A stretch of DNA of 64,000 nucleotides, taken from contig NZ_CP028941.1 of NCBI RefSeq assembly GCF_013307245.1, forward strand, positions 434,001-498,000, written 5' to 3'. Positions 50,948 through 57,430 of the stretch are shown here, piece after piece (position 1 is the first letter of the stretch; every line of letters starts with the position of its first letter). The notes beneath the pieces are model-generated. The model was given only the letters and a program-made list of their open reading frames with translations, was not told the DNA's origin and did no database searches. The DNA comes from Polynucleobacter antarcticus (GTDB lineage Bacteria; Pseudomonadota; Gammaproteobacteria; Burkholderiales; Burkholderiaceae). The translations under genes and the position numbers were made by a program.

Positions 50948-52447
50948 TTAAGCAGCCGCTGCCTTCTTCTTACCAATAAACTTGCCAATTAAAGGCCAGA
51001 AGAGCAATAACAGAGCAAGGAAAGTGATGCCGCCTACTAAGTAGTTAGAGAAGAAAATCTCTAAGCTACCTTGGGACATCAACATGGACTGACGGAATGA
51101 GTCCTCAGCACGGTCACCCAATACCAAGGCCAAGACCATAGGTGCCATTGGATAGTCTAACTTCTTAAAAACATATCCAAGTATGCCAAAGCCCATCATT
51201 AACCATATGTCAAACGTAGCGTTATGAACGGTGTAAGCACCAACCGCACAAATCACAATAATGACAGGAGCAATAATCGAGAAAGGGATTCTCAAAATGG
51301 AGGCAAACAGCGGAACGCAAGTCAACACCACAATCAAGCCTGCAATGTTGCCCAAGTACATACTCGCAATCAAGCCCCAAACAAAGTCTGGCTTTTCAAC
51401 GAAGAGCAATGGACCTGGTTGTAAACCCCAAATCAACAAGCCGCCAAGTAAAACTGCTGCGGTTGGTGATCCTGGAATACCCAATGAGAGCATTGGCAAC
51501 AAGGCTGCAGTACCTGCAGCATGTGCGGCGGTTTCTGGAGCAATAATCCCTTCCATCTCACCCTTACCAAAGTTCTTACCGTCCTTAGATACGCGCTTTG
51601 CAACACCGTAAGCCATAAAGGAGGCTGGGGTCGCTCCACCTGGGGTGATACCCATCCAGCAACCAATTAAGCAGCTGCGCAATGAAGTTGCCCAATACTT
51701 TGGCAATTTCGCCCAGGTATCAAGAACAACCTGACGGCGAATCTTAGCAGCGGCACCTTTAAATGATAGGCCCTCTTCCATTGAAAGGAGGATTTCGCCA
51801 ATACCGAATAAGCCGATCACTGCGATCAAGAAATCAAAGCCGCGCATGAGCTCAGGCTGACCAAAAGTCAAGCGTAACTGTCCGGTAACAGTATCCATAC
51901 CTACTGTAGCCAGTGCAAAACCGAGCATCATTGCAGAGATAGTCTTAAATGGCGAACCTTTATTCATCCCCACAAAACTACAGAAGGTCAGAAGATACAC
52001 AGCGAAGAATTCAGGCGGACCGAACTGCAGGGCAAACTTCGCCACAAGCGGGGCCAAGAAGGTAATCATGACAATCGCAAAGAACGCACCTACAAAGGAA
52101 GATGTGAATGCTGCAGTTAAGGCTTCGCCAGGCTTACCATTGCGAGCCATTGGATAGCCGTCAAAAGTAGTTGCAACAGACCAAGGTTCACCCGGAATAT
52201 TGAACAAAATCGAAGTAATCGCACCGCCAAATAACGCACCCCAGTAAATACAGGAGAGCATGATGATGGCGGATGTTGGAGGCATCGTAAAGGTGAGTGG
52301 TAACAGAATAGCAATACCATTCGCACCGCCTAAGCCGGGCAATACGCCAATAATCACACCAAGTGTTACGCCTACAAACATTAACATTAAGTTAAAGGGG
52401 GTCATTGCGATGGCAAATCCACCGAATAGGGCATTAATTTCTTCCAA
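50948..52447 (-). CDS. Tripartite tricarboxylate transporter large permease TctA
   Basis: A 499-residue inner-membrane protein of about ten to twelve helices with the family motifs GVIIGVLPGLGGANGIAILLPLTF and GIPGSPTAAVLLGGLLIWGLQPGPLL. The start is TTG at 52447, preceded at ideal spacing by AAGGAG. It works with the small TctB and the periplasmic TctC encoded just upstream to import a carboxylate using an ion gradient. It may also serve orphan Bug proteins such as the one at 3666. Substrate is unknown. Confidence 0.92.
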   Translation of the reverse strand: MEEINALFGGFAIAMTPFNLMLMFVGVTLGVIIGVLPGLGGANGIAILLPLTFTMPPTSAIIMLSCIYWGALFGGAITSILFNIPGEPWSVATTFDGYPMARNGKPGEALTAAFTSSFVGAFFAIVMITFLAPLVAKFALQFGPPEFFAVYLLTFCSFVGMNKGSPFKTISAMMLGFALATVGMDTVTGQLRLTFGQPELMRGFDFLIAVIGLFGIGEILLSMEEGLSFKGAAAKIRRQVVLDTWAKLPKYWATSLRSCLIGCWMGITPGGATPASFMAYGVAKRVSKDGKNFGKGEMEGIIAPETAAHAAGTAALLPMLSLGIPGSPTAAVLLGGLLIWGLQPGPLLFVEKPDFVWGLIASMYLGNIAGLIVVLTCVPLFASILRIPFSIIAPVIIVICAVGAYTVHNATFDIWLMMGFGILGYVFKKLDYPMAPMVLALVLGDRAEDSFRQSMLMSQGSLEIFFSNYLVGGITFLALLLLFWPLIGKFIGKKKAAAA

Positions 52448-52505
52448 CTCGTACTCCTTCTTTTCTAATCTTTTTGTATCGTTATTTTGTATTCGTTATG
52501 TTGAA

Positions 52506-53033
52506 TTAATTCACGCCGATAAATTCAAGCGGATTAATCAATGAGCCATGAGGCAATGGGATCTGAAACCAGAACTCAAACATCATGTACAGGGCAACAC
52601 TCACTCCCAATGCAACAGCAAGCGCTTTCAAGAGTGGGTATTTACCCAACCACACCATAAAGATAAAGATATATAAGGTGGATGCAACGTAGATGCCAAT
52701 TAATTGCACACCCAGAACGAAGATAATAGCTGGCAATAGCACGGCCAATACCTGCTTGAGAGACTCTTTGCCGACGAAAGACTCTGTCTCTTTTTTCTTG
52801 TCTACTACCACCGCCTGATACAGGGTGATAGAACTGGAAATAATGAAAATTAAGCTAATGTAGAAGGGAAAATATCCAGCCTCCGGTCCATCGCTACCCC
52901 ACGAGGCTCCTAGCTTAATACTACCGATGACAACCACCAGGCCAAGCGCAATAAATAGCAGCGCAGTAATGATATCCATCGCGCGTACGCTGATGGCTGA
53001 TTCTTCTTGGGGGCTGTTTGTATTTTCAGACAT
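52506..53033 (-). CDS. Tripartite tricarboxylate transporter small permease TctB
   Basis: A 175-residue membrane protein with four helices, the standard TctB layout (ITALLFIALGLVVVIGSIKLG near the N-terminus). ATG 53033 is chosen; an in-frame GTG at 53045 is possible, and neither has a strong ribosome binding site. It lies between tctC and tctA on the same strand. Confidence 0.88.
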   Translation of the reverse strand: MSENTNSPQEESAISVRAMDIITALLFIALGLVVVIGSIKLGASWGSDGPEAGYFPFYISLIFIISSSITLYQAVVVDKKKETESFVGKESLKQVLAVLLPAIIFVLGVQLIGIYVASTLYIFIFMVWLGKYPLLKALAVALGVSVALYMMFEFWFQIPLPHGSLINPLEFIGVN

Positions 53034-53097
53034 AAATTGATTCACTAATAAATTGGGTTAAACAATGTCACTGCTGTTAAATCAAGTACTACCTTTT

Positions 53098-53127
53098 AAA
53101 AAGTGAGGCCTCCTTTTGGAGGCCTCC
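53098..53127 (-). terminator. Intercistronic hairpin between tctC and tctBA
   Basis: A perfect 9-bp stem GAGGCCTCC/GGAGGCCTC with a TTTT loop is followed on the minus strand by ACTTTTT. It lies directly after tctC. It could end part of the transcripts and protect the tctC message, giving more binding protein than permease. Confidence 0.82.
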
Positions 53128-53144
53128 TTTAATACTGTTACTAA

Positions 53145-54149
53145 TTACTTAGCCAAGAAACCTGCTTCAGTCATCAACTGCTTATGAAGGGCTTCATTCA
53201 GCGTTAGCCAGTTAGAAAACTCTTTTCCAGTCATGAATGTTTGATTAAATGCACCATCAGCCATGAACTTTTTCCACTCAGGTGTCTCGCGTACTTTTTT
53301 GAACAAATTGACGAAGAAATCAACCTGCTCTTGAGTCACTCCAGGCGCCATAAAGATGCCACGCAACATTACGTAGTCAGTGGGTACGCCAACCTCAGCA
53401 CAAGTTGGAACATCATTCCAAGATTGAGTTGGAGTAATCTTTTCTTTGTAAGGCATGCGCGTGTCATCAAATACGCATAAAGCACGTAACTTACCGGCGC
53501 GCCATTGTGCAACTGCCTCAATGGGGTTATTTACAGATGAATCAATATGATTACCCACTAACTGAACGGCTACATCACCACCCCCTTTAAATGGGATATA
53601 GGTGAATTTAGCGCCAGTTGCCTTTTCTAGAGCAACGGTAATAATTTGATCTTCTTGTTTAGATCCCGTACCACCCATCTTAAACTTACCTGGGCCTGCT
53701 GCCTTAGCAGCATCAATGTATTCCTTAGCAGTTTTTTGTGGCTTGTCAACGTTATTCCACAATACAAACTGATCCAGTGCCAACATCGCAACTGGCGTAA
53801 TGTCTTTCCAGTTAAAAGGAACGCCCGTTGCTAATGGCGTAGTAAACAAGTTTGACAAAGTAATCACAATTTTATGTGGGTCGCCCTTGGCTTCTTTCAT
53901 CGCTAAGAAACCTTCAGCACCGGCACCAGCGCCCTTATTCACAGGGATGATTGCCTGCTTCATCAAGTTATTTTTAGTAACAATTCCTTGAATCATGCGA
54001 GCCATTTGGTCAGCACCGCCACCAGGGCCAGCGGGGATAACAAACTCAACCGACTTGGTTGGCTCCCATGCAGCAAAAGCAGGTGAAACTCCAGCAACAC
54101 CGAGGGCTAATGCGGTGGAAATCAGTGCCCCTTTTAACTTCATTTTCAT
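53145..54149 (-). CDS. Tripartite tricarboxylate transporter substrate-binding protein TctC
   Basis: A 334-residue periplasmic protein with a Sec signal (cut near AFAA, about residue 27). The mature start is WEPTKSVEFVIPAGPGGGADQMARMIQ, of the TctC/Bug family. AAGGAGGAG is a very strong ribosome binding site. It is first in a tctC-tctB-tctA operon, separated from the permease genes by a hairpin. It differs clearly from the Bug protein at 3666, so the ligands probably differ. Confidence 0.9.
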   Translation of the reverse strand: MKMKLKGALISTALALGVAGVSPAFAAWEPTKSVEFVIPAGPGGGADQMARMIQGIVTKNNLMKQAIIPVNKGAGAGAEGFLAMKEAKGDPHKIVITLSNLFTTPLATGVPFNWKDITPVAMLALDQFVLWNNVDKPQKTAKEYIDAAKAAGPGKFKMGGTGSKQEDQIITVALEKATGAKFTYIPFKGGGDVAVQLVGNHIDSSVNNPIEAVAQWRAGKLRALCVFDDTRMPYKEKITPTQSWNDVPTCAEVGVPTDYVMLRGIFMAPGVTQEQVDFFVNLFKKVRETPEWKKFMADGAFNQTFMTGKEFSNWLTLNEALHKQLMTEAGFLAK

Positions 54150-54313: not shown

Positions 54314-54389
54314 TGGTGCCGCTTGCCGGAATCGAACTGGCGACCTTTTCATTACGAATGAACTGCTCTACCAACTGAGCTAAAGCGGC
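54314..54389 (-). tRNA. tRNA-Thr (anticodon CGT)
   Basis: On the minus strand this 76-nt sequence has the acceptor stem GCCGCTT/AAGCGGC, discriminator A and an encoded CCA. The D-arm contains AGCTCAGTTGGTAGAGC. The anticodon loop TTCGTAA gives CGT. The T-arm contains GTTCGATTC. The G-A mismatch at 27-43 is also found in E. coli tRNA-Thr(CGU). Confidence 0.95.
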
Positions 54390-54417: not shown

Positions 54418-54894
54418 TTAGCGGAACCGATCTAAAAACTTTTTACTTAACTTATCGAGCTGAGTCGAGTCCTTAATCAGAAATTGGAGGCCATTTGCAT
54501 CAGCGACTAATAAGGTATTGCCAGCAACCCGCCGAATATCCTCTTCCGCCTTAAGGCGAATTCTCGTAGGTCCGCGGTCTGTCTCAATATCCCAAATACT
54601 GGGAGTAGCAAAAGTGGAGACCTTCGTAATTCTTTCAATCACCGGCATGAACTCACGTGCAGCTAAATCCTGTTCAATCAACTCCATCTCAAGCACTGGA
54701 ATATCTTCAAGACGATCAAACCAACAAAGTTCTTTGCCTGCTGTATCCATCAAAGAAATCCCTGCACTTGGAGCGGTAATGGGGTAGGCTCTGACGGGAT
54801 AGACCCCTTCGTGGTGATTCCCAGCATCATCGATGAATACAAGACAACCTAGCGCATCTCGCTCAAGAGAATAAGGCTTGCGATGCGTACTCAT
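54418..54894 (-). CDS. DUF1854 protein linked to cyanophycin metabolism
   Basis: A 158-residue soluble protein matching DUF1854 (LERDALGCLVFIDDAGNHHEGVYPVRAYPITAPSAGISLMD, then a late DRGPTRIRLKAEEDIRRV). Its ATG overlaps the stop of the ABC exporter gene by 4 bp, so the two are translated together. This pair beside cphA genes is known from other betaproteobacteria, but its function has not been shown to my knowledge. It has no signal or membrane segment, so it is probably a cytosolic partner of the exporter, perhaps of its extra N-terminal domain. tRNA-Thr follows. Confidence 0.85.
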   Translation of the reverse strand: MSTHRKPYSLERDALGCLVFIDDAGNHHEGVYPVRAYPITAPSAGISLMDTAGKELCWFDRLEDIPVLEMELIEQDLAAREFMPVIERITKVSTFATPSIWDIETDRGPTRIRLKAEEDIRRVAGNTLLVADANGLQFLIKDSTQLDKLSKKFLDRFR

Positions 54895-57221
54895 ATTTTG
54901 CCCCCTACTTTGATCTCTGAAACGCCCTCTACTTTTACATCTTGGAGACTTTCACCAATAGCGCCGCCTTCCACCAAGTCTGCAGCTTGGCGAAGTTGCG
55001 CTTGATATAAAGCGTAGTAAGCGCCCTGCGCCTCCATCAATTGATCATGAGAGCCAATCTCTACAATTTCACCTTTATCTAAGACTACCAAGCGATCTGC
55101 TTTCCTGAGCGTAGATAGACGATGTGCAATTGCAATCGTAGTACGGCCTTTCACAAGATTGTCTAAGGCACGCTGAATTTCTTTTTCAGTTGTGGTGTCG
55201 ACAGAGGAGGTAGCCTCATCCAAAATCAGAATACTGGGATTAATCAGTAAAGCACGCGCAATGGAAATACGTTGACGCTCTCCACCTGAGAGAGATTGGC
55301 CGCGCTCACCTACTAGAGAGTCGTAACCTAAAGGTAATCGTAATATGAATTCGTGAGCATGGGCTGCACGCGCTGCTTCAATGATTTCTTCTCGAGTAGC
55401 CTCTGGTTTTCCATACGCAATATTCTCGGCAATCGTGCCAAAGAATAAAAACGGCTCTTGAAGCACTAAGCCAATACGCTTGCGATAGTCTGCGATCGCA
55501 ATACTACGAATATCGCGACCATCTAAAGAAATAGATCCCGCACTCACGTCGTAAAAGCGGCAGATCAAATTCACTAAAGTACTTTTGCCGGAGCCACTAT
55601 GGCCCACAAGCCCAATCATTTCTCCGGGCGCAATATCCAGATCAATACCTTTAGAAACCGCACGGTTACCATAGCGGAAACCGACACCTCTAAGAGCGAT
55701 ATGCCCTTTCACGTTGGTCAGGGGGGCTGGATTAATCGGTTCAGGAACGCTAGAGACATGATCCAAAATATCGAAAATCCGCTTTGCCCCTGCCGCTGCT
55801 TTTTGGGTATGAGAAACAATTCGACTCATTGAATCTAAGCGAAGATAGAAGCGTCCGATATAAGCTAGGAAAGCAATTAAAACACCCACCGAAACTTTTT
55901 GATGCGCAACCTGCCAAATTCCAAAACCCCAAACCACTAATAGACCTGTTTCCGTTAAGAAAGTGACTGTGGGGGAAAATAAACCCCAGATGCGATTAAC
56001 CCGATCATTAATCTGCAAGTTATGCTTATTCGAATCAACGAAGCGTTTAAGTTCGCGGTCTTCTTGAGCAAAGGCTTTCACTACCCGAATACCTGGGATG
56101 GTGTCTGCCAAAATGTTAGTCACTTCAGACCAGGTGCGATCAATCTTTTCAAAACCAAAACGCAACTTATCTCTGACTGTATGAATCATCCACACAATGA
56201 ATGGCAGTGGTGCCAATGTGACCAAAGCAAGCAAGGGATCAATCGAAATTAAGATCGCTGCTGTCATTGTGATCATAATCACGTCGGTAATAAAATCTAA
56301 AGCGTAGAGCGAGAGAAATACACAGATGCGATCAGTTTCAGCGCCAATGCGCGCCATTAAGTCGCCGGTTCTTTTTCCCCCAAAGTACTCCAAAGATAAC
56401 TTGAGCAAATGTTCAAAGGTTGTATTGCGTAAATCGGCACCGATCCGCTCACTGACTAATGCTAAGAGGTAGGTTTTCCACCAACCTAAACCCCAGGCAA
56501 CCACAGCAGCAGCAAACAAGGCCACCAGATATTGGCTAGCCAAAGCAAAATCAATCGGATTGCCTTTTTCGTAAGGGATCAACACATTGTCCATTAAGGG
56601 CATCGTCAGGTAAGGCGGTATTAAAGTAGCGCCCGTGGAAAGCAGAGTTAATACAAACCCCAGCAATAATTCTTTTTTATAGGGACGAGCAAAACGCCAT
56701 AATTTAAATAGAGTCCAGGTAGACGGTGGTATATCTCCTTCTGGATCACATGTTGGGCACACATCTGAATTAGCTGGCTTAGGACTCAAACAGGCATGAC
56801 AGATTTGCTGATCATATTCAGATATCTCAACAATCTCAGTAGGCTGATCCCCACGCGCAAGCTGCCTAAAGCTACTTTGCAAACGCAGGATTTGCGGATT
56901 TACCGCTAAAGTGAAATGCCAAACCCGCAATAGGCTGTCATCTGTTTGAAGTTTGAGATACCCGACCCCAGATTGATCGCCATGTAGAAGATGCGCTGCA
57001 GGGCTAATAGGCCAGAATTGGGAATGGTCACGATCCACCCAAAAAAGCCCTGCATCAGTGAGACACAGCAGACTTTTACCAAAATGCATGTCACTATCAA
57101 GATCTAGCTCAGCCCACGCTAATATGGAGTCAAGATCCTTGATAGGGAATAAAGCGGATCCCAAAATGCCCACCCAATTACTTGGTGGTCGTGTGTTGGA
57201 TAGGGAAATTTCTGGATTCAT
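54891..57221 (-). CDS. Type I ABC exporter with N-terminal zinc-ribbon domain, cyanophycin-associated
   Basis: A 776-residue half-transporter with an unusual front. Residues 1-135 form a soluble, mixed alpha/beta domain. A CxxC-x10-CxxC zinc ribbon follows at C141, C144, C155, C158. The six-helix exporter membrane domain spans about 175-470. The ATPase has Walker A GHSGSGKS (540-547), Q-loop VLQEP, signature LSGGERQ (644-650), Walker B ILILDEA and switch His in IAIAHRLS. Normal half-exporters are about 580-600 residues, so the extra ~170 are specific. A 4-bp overlap joins it to the DUF1854 gene, and the cphA genes are divergent. Whether it exports a peptide, cyanophycin dipeptides or a lipid, or acts as a regulator, is unknown. 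Confidence 0.88.
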   Translation of the reverse strand: MNPEISLSNTRPPSNWVGILGSALFPIKDLDSILAWAELDLDSDMHFGKSLLCLTDAGLFWVDRDHSQFWPISPAAHLLHGDQSGVGYLKLQTDDSLLRVWHFTLAVNPQILRLQSSFRQLARGDQPTEIVEISEYDQQICHACLSPKPANSDVCPTCDPEGDIPPSTWTLFKLWRFARPYKKELLLGFVLTLLSTGATLIPPYLTMPLMDNVLIPYEKGNPIDFALASQYLVALFAAAVVAWGLGWWKTYLLALVSERIGADLRNTTFEHLLKLSLEYFGGKRTGDLMARIGAETDRICVFLSLYALDFITDVIMITMTAAILISIDPLLALVTLAPLPFIVWMIHTVRDKLRFGFEKIDRTWSEVTNILADTIPGIRVVKAFAQEDRELKRFVDSNKHNLQINDRVNRIWGLFSPTVTFLTETGLLVVWGFGIWQVAHQKVSVGVLIAFLAYIGRFYLRLDSMSRIVSHTQKAAAGAKRIFDILDHVSSVPEPINPAPLTNVKGHIALRGVGFRYGNRAVSKGIDLDIAPGEMIGLVGHSGSGKSTLVNLICRFYDVSAGSISLDGRDIRSIAIADYRKRIGLVLQEPFLFFGTIAENIAYGKPEATREEIIEAARAAHAHEFILRLPLGYDSLVGERGQSLSGGERQRISIARALLINPSILILDEATSSVDTTTEKEIQRALDNLVKGRTTIAIAHRLSTLRKADRLVVLDKGEIVEIGSHDQLMEAQGAYYALYQAQLRQAADLVEGGAIGESLQDVKVEGVSEIKVGGKI

Positions 57222-57430
57222 GAATCCTAAAAGTATAGTGGAGCCTACTTTTTTCTATTTATATGTTTTGTCAACTTTAAAGGCCAGAAAGCCGTTAAAT
57301 TATCAAATTGAAGCTTTTTATGTAATTTTGCTAATTTTGTGGATTTTTAATAATTATTAGAAACAGAGAGACAGTTTGAAATATCCCTGCCCTTATCGCT
57401 TGCGGTAGCAGAGATCATCCTATTCCACAC

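Follow-up and report, generated by a model that had tools for sequence, protein, structure and literature searches.

A cyanophycin-associated ABC exporter and its DUF1854 neighbour track the absence of cyanophycinase

In a 64,000-nucleotide stretch of the Polynucleobacter antarcticus genome (contig NZ_CP028941.1, positions 434,001 to 498,000 of the forward strand; hereafter the window), the gene of an ABC half-exporter adjoins that of a DUF1854 protein and is divergent from two genes of the cyanophycin synthetase type, cphA' and cphA (Table 1). The end of the exporter gene shares 4 bp with the DUF1854 gene (54891-54894), 209 bp separate the exporter gene from the start of cphA', and cphA follows directly after cphA'. 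This arrangement had been described in an earlier account made from the DNA letters alone (hereafter the sequence-only reading), as had the roughly 170 extra N-terminal residues of the exporter with their CxxC-x10-CxxC motif, and our analysis bears out both, placing the cysteines at residues 141, 144, 155 and 158. Over two genome surveys we found that the exporter/DUF1854 pair tracks the absence of cyanophycinase and is excluded from cyanophycinase loci. Many beta-proteobacteria with cyanophycin genes thus carry, in the genomes surveyed, this exporter and its partner instead of cyanophycinase, which suggests a product that leaves the cell or is handled otherwise.

Table 1. Features of the exporter and cyanophycin synthetase locus, with positions in the window
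Feature	Position	Strand	Basis or remark
ABC half-exporter, 776 aa	54891..57221	-	NF052233 (cyanophycin metabolism-associated ABC transporter) 1310.9 bits vs cut-off 880; ABC_membrane and ABC_tran in Pfam
PH-like front domain, residues 33-122	56856..57125	-	AlphaFold2 and Foldseek prediction: seven strands and a C-terminal helix
Zinc-ribbon motif CxxC-x10-CxxC, residues 141-158	56748..56801	-	Sequence; weak Pfam DZR match
Transmembrane domain, residues 185-456	55854..56669	-	PF00664 (ABC_membrane) 145.6 bits
Nucleotide-binding domain, residues 524-672	55206..55652	-	PF00005 (ABC_tran) 120.5 bits
DUF1854 protein, 158 aa	54418..54894	-	NF052234 211.7 bits vs cut-off 150; PF08909 152.1 bits vs 26.8
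Divergent intergenic region, exporter / cphA'	57222..57430		209 bp
cphA', 730 aa	57431..59623	+	Primer-site and ATP-grasp residues kept; no match to Mur-ligase C-terminal domain
cphA, 856 aa	59624..62194	+	TIGR02068 997.1 bits vs cut-off 850; retains the Mur-ligase (Arg-adding) residues but not the primer-site cysteine

The exporter and the DUF1854 protein of the window score above the curated cut-offs of two families that NCBI names for cyanophycin metabolism (NF052233, NF052234), and the link of the locus to cyanophycin, which the sequence-only reading had noted for related bacteria, is in this sense already known. These names record an association only; new here are the predicted PH-like front domain of the exporter, its exclusion from loci with cyanophycinase, and its connection with a synthetase that looks split. 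In the openly licensed literature we found no paper with the term DUF1854 or with the NCBI family names and, among the matches listed, none on this exporter and none linking it to a missing cyanophycinase.

The two surveys covered 120 genomes of the order and 397 genomes of the phylum. In the order survey, where a second TIGR02068 match (about 610-930 bits) was taken as cphA', the exporter (over cut-off), DUF1854 and cphA' occupied identical sets of genomes (43/120). The cphA gene was over cut-off in 41 of these 43, being split into two frames in one of the others (G010) and cut by a contig end in the second (G029), and it occurred without the exporter in three genomes (G040, G084, G110), giving a Fisher p of 5e-26 for exporter versus cphA when G010 and G029 are counted as lacking cphA, and of 2e-29 otherwise. 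Five genera (g7, g16, g30, g37, g49) include some species with all of these genes and others with none, a contrast that uses one genome from the phylum draw for g49 and lies within the order draw for the other four. The phylum survey yielded DUF1854 in 27 of 397 genomes, one of which (G409; loci L057 / L191) has a 27-bit match within a 336-aa frame and neither exporter nor cphA over cut-off; this genome was dropped from further counts, and the remaining 26 all carry the exporter and a cphA over cut-off. None of seven control genomes (G409 and six without DUF1854) has the exporter over cut-off. Pairs in genomes devoid of cphA, which would speak against the association as the sequence-only reading drew it, did not appear over both surveys (0/59 pair genomes without any cphA-type gene).

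The same association was seen in the gene neighbourhoods of the best 80 of at least 488 DUF1854 relatives, fetched as stretches of 3-20 kb in genome searches centred on this phylum. The exporter was present in 77 of the 80 loci (the contigs of the remaining three begin too near the DUF1854 gene), and a cph gene lay on the same stretch in 76, divergently in 55 and on the same strand in 21. Three of the four loci without a cph gene (L080, L118, L132) are short or near contig ends, and the fourth (L131, from a metagenome-assembled genome) has none within 10 kb on either side.

Cyanophycinase, the dipeptide-making enzyme, has the opposite distribution. Its profile TIGR02069 was over cut-off in 7 of the 120 order genomes, namely 4 of the 43 exporter genomes (G020, G055, G067, G099) and all three cphA genomes without the exporter, and in 16 of the 397 phylum genomes, where among cphA genomes it was found in 2 of 26 with the pair (G055, G450) versus 11 of 11 without it, the absence of the pair from these 11 being read from the DUF1854 search and the fetched stretches rather than from a whole-genome exporter profile. 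In the union of the surveys cyanophycinase is thus present in 5/59 exporter genomes versus 14/14 cphA genomes without the pair (Fisher p = 3e-11, which is only a guide, the genomes being related), and in 13 of the latter 14 no more than 2 kb separate it from cphA, the exception being G084, where the two are on different contigs. A home-made cyanophycinase profile, built from four seed rows that all come from genomes searched (one of them, L159, read from the wrong strand), found no cyanophycinase in 80 exporter-type loci and recovered 14 of 15 cyanophycinase-type stretches, the miss being the cphA stretch of G084. Among the recovered stretches is the second cphA locus of G055, a genome that holds both kinds of locus, with its cyanophycinase 1.9 Mb away from the exporter, and that serves as a within-genome control. 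In this second locus (L164), where cyanophycinase has two convergent cphA copies next to it, each copy carries Gln in place of the ATP-grasp His and neither has an intact primer site. The window's own genome (one contig, 99.95% complete) gave no match at E<=0.001 to cyanophycinase TIGR02069, IaaA PF01112 or IadA TIGR01975.

Loci with a single cphA1 and cyanophycinase (e.g. G203, G328, G348) resemble the window locus in having polymer synthesis genes of the same synthetase superfamily at their core, and differ in encoding a CphA1 that has all three sets of site residues, in having cyanophycinase nearby, and in that the fetched stretches are without this exporter family or DUF1854. Six cyanophycinase-type loci (L168, L169, L172, L175, L180, L181) have an additional Mur-ligase-like open reading frame beside cphA. 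A scarcity of cyanophycinase in beta-proteobacteria has been noted before: passages of a survey of 27,349 genomes report a recognisable enzyme in 2.8% of 903 beta-proteobacterial cphA1 genomes versus 70-100% in other clades, a lack that its authors, Sharon and Schmeing, there call "unanticipated", suggesting unknown isozymes (PMC10206079). Excerpts of an earlier paper likewise state that none was found in beta-proteobacteria, indicating an alternative pathway (PMC5178258), and part of another describes two synthetase genes and an absent cyanophycinase in Herminiimonas (PMC5670224). For the sequence-only reading, which had offered several functions for the exporter, the result cuts against export of breakdown dipeptides in the usual sense, as the pair accompanies the absence of the enzyme that makes them; cofactor supply, another of its suggestions, gained no support.

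The synthetase at these loci looks split between CphA' and CphA. In the CphA1 numbering given in part of PMC9262961 (primer site Cx19HxxEH, ATP-grasp H267, Mur-ligase D585/H586), CphA' keeps the primer site and H267 in 71/71 sequences and has the canonical P-loop pattern in 0/71; by column, it retains the P-loop Lys in 45/71, D585 in 31/71 and H586 in 41/71. The complementary picture is seen in CphA (67 sequences), where the primer Cys is found in 0/67, HxxEH in 1/67 and Cx19HxxEH in 0/67, with the P-loop pattern in 66/67 and D585/H586 in 67/67. Judged by these residues, the primer site is partitioned to CphA' and the intact Arg-adding site to CphA across about 70 loci, and the window CphA' and CphA do not have the N, G and M sites in one chain as CphA1 does. 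All 14 single CphA1 proteins of the cyanophycinase genomes retain the N, G and M residues checked, except that two have Ser for the P-loop Thr. A tree of 71 rows, made by a quick method, places CphA', CphA and single CphA1 each in one group (SH-aLRT 100, 100 and 97).

At the H267 position CphA has no His (0/67), Gln in 66 and Arg in one. Because G232, in its single CphA, and G055, in the two copies at its second locus, also have Gln there, we do not claim that the ATP-grasp (G) site of CphA is dead. The CphA of G073 (L186) has His at this position, and L166 and G497, which are exporter genomes outside the 71/67 sets, have Ala at the H267 column of CphA'. G232 (L167), which belongs to another class and whose assembly shows 8% contamination, has the exporter/DUF1854 pair beside a single CphA, truncated where the contig ends, that retains its primer and Mur-ligase residues; the exporter may therefore not need a split synthetase. 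The endo-cleavage site is kept in CphA' (71/71). CphA2 of cyanobacteria is likewise a second synthetase homologue related to CphA1, but the Cx19HxxEH primer site that CphA' keeps in every row is absent from it according to passages of PMC9262961.

The additional N-terminal part of the exporter is predicted by AlphaFold2 to be a helix, a PH-like domain and then a zinc ribbon; in the full-length protein there was no Pfam match at E<=1 before residue 185. The model, made with 71 sequences, places strands at residues 33-104 and a helix at 105-122, with a predicted local distance difference test score (pLDDT) of 92-97 by block over residues 31-120, and a mean pLDDT of 84.3 and predicted template modelling (TM) score of 0.68 for the front fragment as a whole. 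The 50 Foldseek rows listed, given without aligned ranges, are PH, PTB, FERM and other PH-like proteins, or larger proteins containing such a domain, with a best E of 1.0e-3 (none <0.001) and a probability of 0.96-1.00 in 49 rows and 0.69 in one. The bacterial PH protein 3dcx gave a TM score of 0.64 by target length and 0.42 by query length, and bPH_3 matches the front part weakly (3/47 members at E<=1; 17/71 at E<=10). The sequence-only reading had called this part a zinc-ribbon front domain, which is half right. The window protein has the two CxxC knuckles at a suitable spacing, and its front part scanned alone gave one weak zinc-ribbon match (DZR, 13.5-13.7 bits vs cut-off 27.3), with weak matches in many relatives too. 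The constant element is the PH-like domain and not the ribbon, whose cysteines are lost in a minority of relatives (5/47 rows; 4/71 rows, a count that left out five further loci missed by the search pattern; and 4/4 loci chosen for a front part not matching the NCBI profile), and the ribbon is, as far as these alignments go, dispensable in the family. Domains of the PH, PTB and FERM folds usually serve for docking, and sensing or docking through the front domain would fit the predicted fold.

Relatives of the exporter retain the Walker A, signature, Walker B and H-loop motifs without exception (75/75) and match a stricter D-loop pattern in 62/75, and the window protein combines a transmembrane and an ABC domain in one chain with the four ATPase motifs, as in type IV ABC exporters. 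Among 46 relatives, two of them in the same genus, identity to the window protein outside the genus was 64-77% (mostly 71-77%) in the core versus 22-37% in the front part. These values bear on a reading in which exporter and DUF1854 are mainly a membrane platform, the PH-like domain binding CphA'/CphA or the granule so that synthesis is placed at the membrane, with transport secondary. The docking habit of such folds, the strict co-occurrence with cphA' and a synthetase in two chains all argue for a platform, but the intact ATPase motifs in every member and a core far more conserved than the front domain make it rather improbable in our estimate.

Charged residues D313 and E424 in the membrane part, and R457 and D463 just beyond it, are conserved in >=97% of the 75 rows (with only two outgroup sequences for comparison), and those within the membrane part would fit a charged substrate. 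Such a substrate could in principle travel inward, as arginine or Asp-Arg peptides for the synthetase, and importers with an exporter fold exist (IrtAB, Rv1819c); yet the loci hold no conserved extra gene, for instance for a binding protein, and CphA1 takes free Asp and Arg according to part of PMC10206079, and we regard import as the least probable of the readings considered here. PCAT/C39 and HlyB-type peptide exporters share with the window protein an extra cytosolic domain ahead of the exporter core, and differ from it in that its extra domain is predicted to be PH-like, no conserved accessory secretion genes lie nearby, and no C39 Pfam match was found, so that it is not classed as a PCAT/C39 peptide exporter.

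The DUF1854 protein, probably the partner of the exporter, is predicted to consist largely of beta structure and two longer helices (mean pLDDT 89.4), and Foldseek gave no confident match for it (best E 3.4e-3, probability 0.54). DUF1854 matched one of 14 control genomes, that of Sulfolobus acidocaldarius, which has no TIGR02068 match at 1e-100, and there was no DUF1854 match at E<=0.01 among 72,556 plasmid records. We considered whether the front domain and DUF1854 are copies of one domain, which was not supported (hhalign probability only 6.3%), and whether DUF1854 is the missing depolymerase, which we think unlikely given invariant residues without Cys or His, no confident fold match, and its presence in Sulfolobus without a strong cphA match. 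The sole fused exporter-DUF1854 frame (L100) has an altered exporter tail, possibly from a sequencing frameshift, and was not used as proof of contact. Directly downstream of the DUF1854 gene in the window, on the same strand, is a tRNA-Thr (cgt) at 54314-54389, followed at 50948-54149 by three genes that resemble, by eye only and without an NCBIfam match, a tripartite tricarboxylate (TctCBA-type) transporter. The exporter/cphA' intergenic region holds two weak sigma-70-like matches on the - strand, the scanned region giving 9 matches versus 5.7 (sd 2.5) in shuffles.

The best explanation we can offer, with a confidence of roughly 0.45, is that exporter, DUF1854, cphA' and cphA act as one module that exports an Asp-Arg product in place of cyanophycinase. 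CphA' and CphA would jointly make an Asp-Arg polypeptide, each filling in active sites missing in the other, while the half-exporter would act as a homodimer, with DUF1854 as its cytosolic partner, and export an Asp-Arg chain or oligomer from the cytoplasm. The PH-like front domain may recruit the product or the synthetase; peptide exporters carry a substrate-docking domain at the very place that it occupies. The exporter would then be the exit of the pathway in bacteria without cyanophycinase, and departure of the product through it is the simplest account of a present exporter and an absent cyanophycinase. We also count in favour of this module the conservation of the exporter core and of its charged membrane residues, and a review that, in part, describes wild-type R. 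eutropha as without visible cyanophycin despite two synthetase homologues (PMC11362209, citing Adames 2013). In a bolder form, beta-proteobacterial cyanophycin would be an exported, surface or periplasmic polymer and not a storage granule, made by a split synthetase (CphA' priming and adding Asp, CphA adding Arg) that feeds an exporter with a PH-like docking domain and DUF1854; this would explain why no cyanophycinase is needed, and we consider it possible, if on the unlikely side.

Several observations weigh against export of the product. In those species where it has been studied, cyanophycin forms long insoluble chains, and among the 80 neighbourhoods there was no other widely conserved neighbour (the largest other cluster is in 12/80 loci) and no periplasmic or outer-membrane export gene. 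The closest general profiles of the exporter are MsbA-like (lipid and drug exporters), not peptide exporters. DUF1854 is not specific to cyanophycin, since it occurs in S. acidocaldarius, and the Mur-ligase site of CphA' is degenerate rather than cleanly deleted, because its columns are partly kept. Five exporter genomes do carry cyanophycinase, though never at the exporter locus: it lies either on a different contig or no closer than 180 kb to the exporter. Moreover, the endo-cleavage site kept in CphA' could act as a slow depolymerase, so that export would not be the sole way out. Together with the profile result, this retained site favours a polymer kept as an internal store that an unknown depolymerase mobilises, with the exporter moving something else (for example a small by-product or a lipid) or setting the Arg/Asp balance, and the isozymes proposed in passages of PMC10206079 would supply such an enzyme. 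That account, however, leaves the exporter/cyanophycinase exclusion unexplained, finds no other widely conserved gene in the 80 loci, and has to contend with the window's own genome being without IaaA and IadA matches as well; we hold it to be less probable than the export module.

The exporter family had already been named, and its exclusion from cyanophycinase loci is a new regularity. The two-survey result names what beta-proteobacterial loci without cyanophycinase carry instead, and so bears on a published puzzle. Should the product indeed be exported, this polymer, which is of biotechnological interest, could be produced extracellularly, and cyanophycin could no longer be taken to be an internal store in every case.

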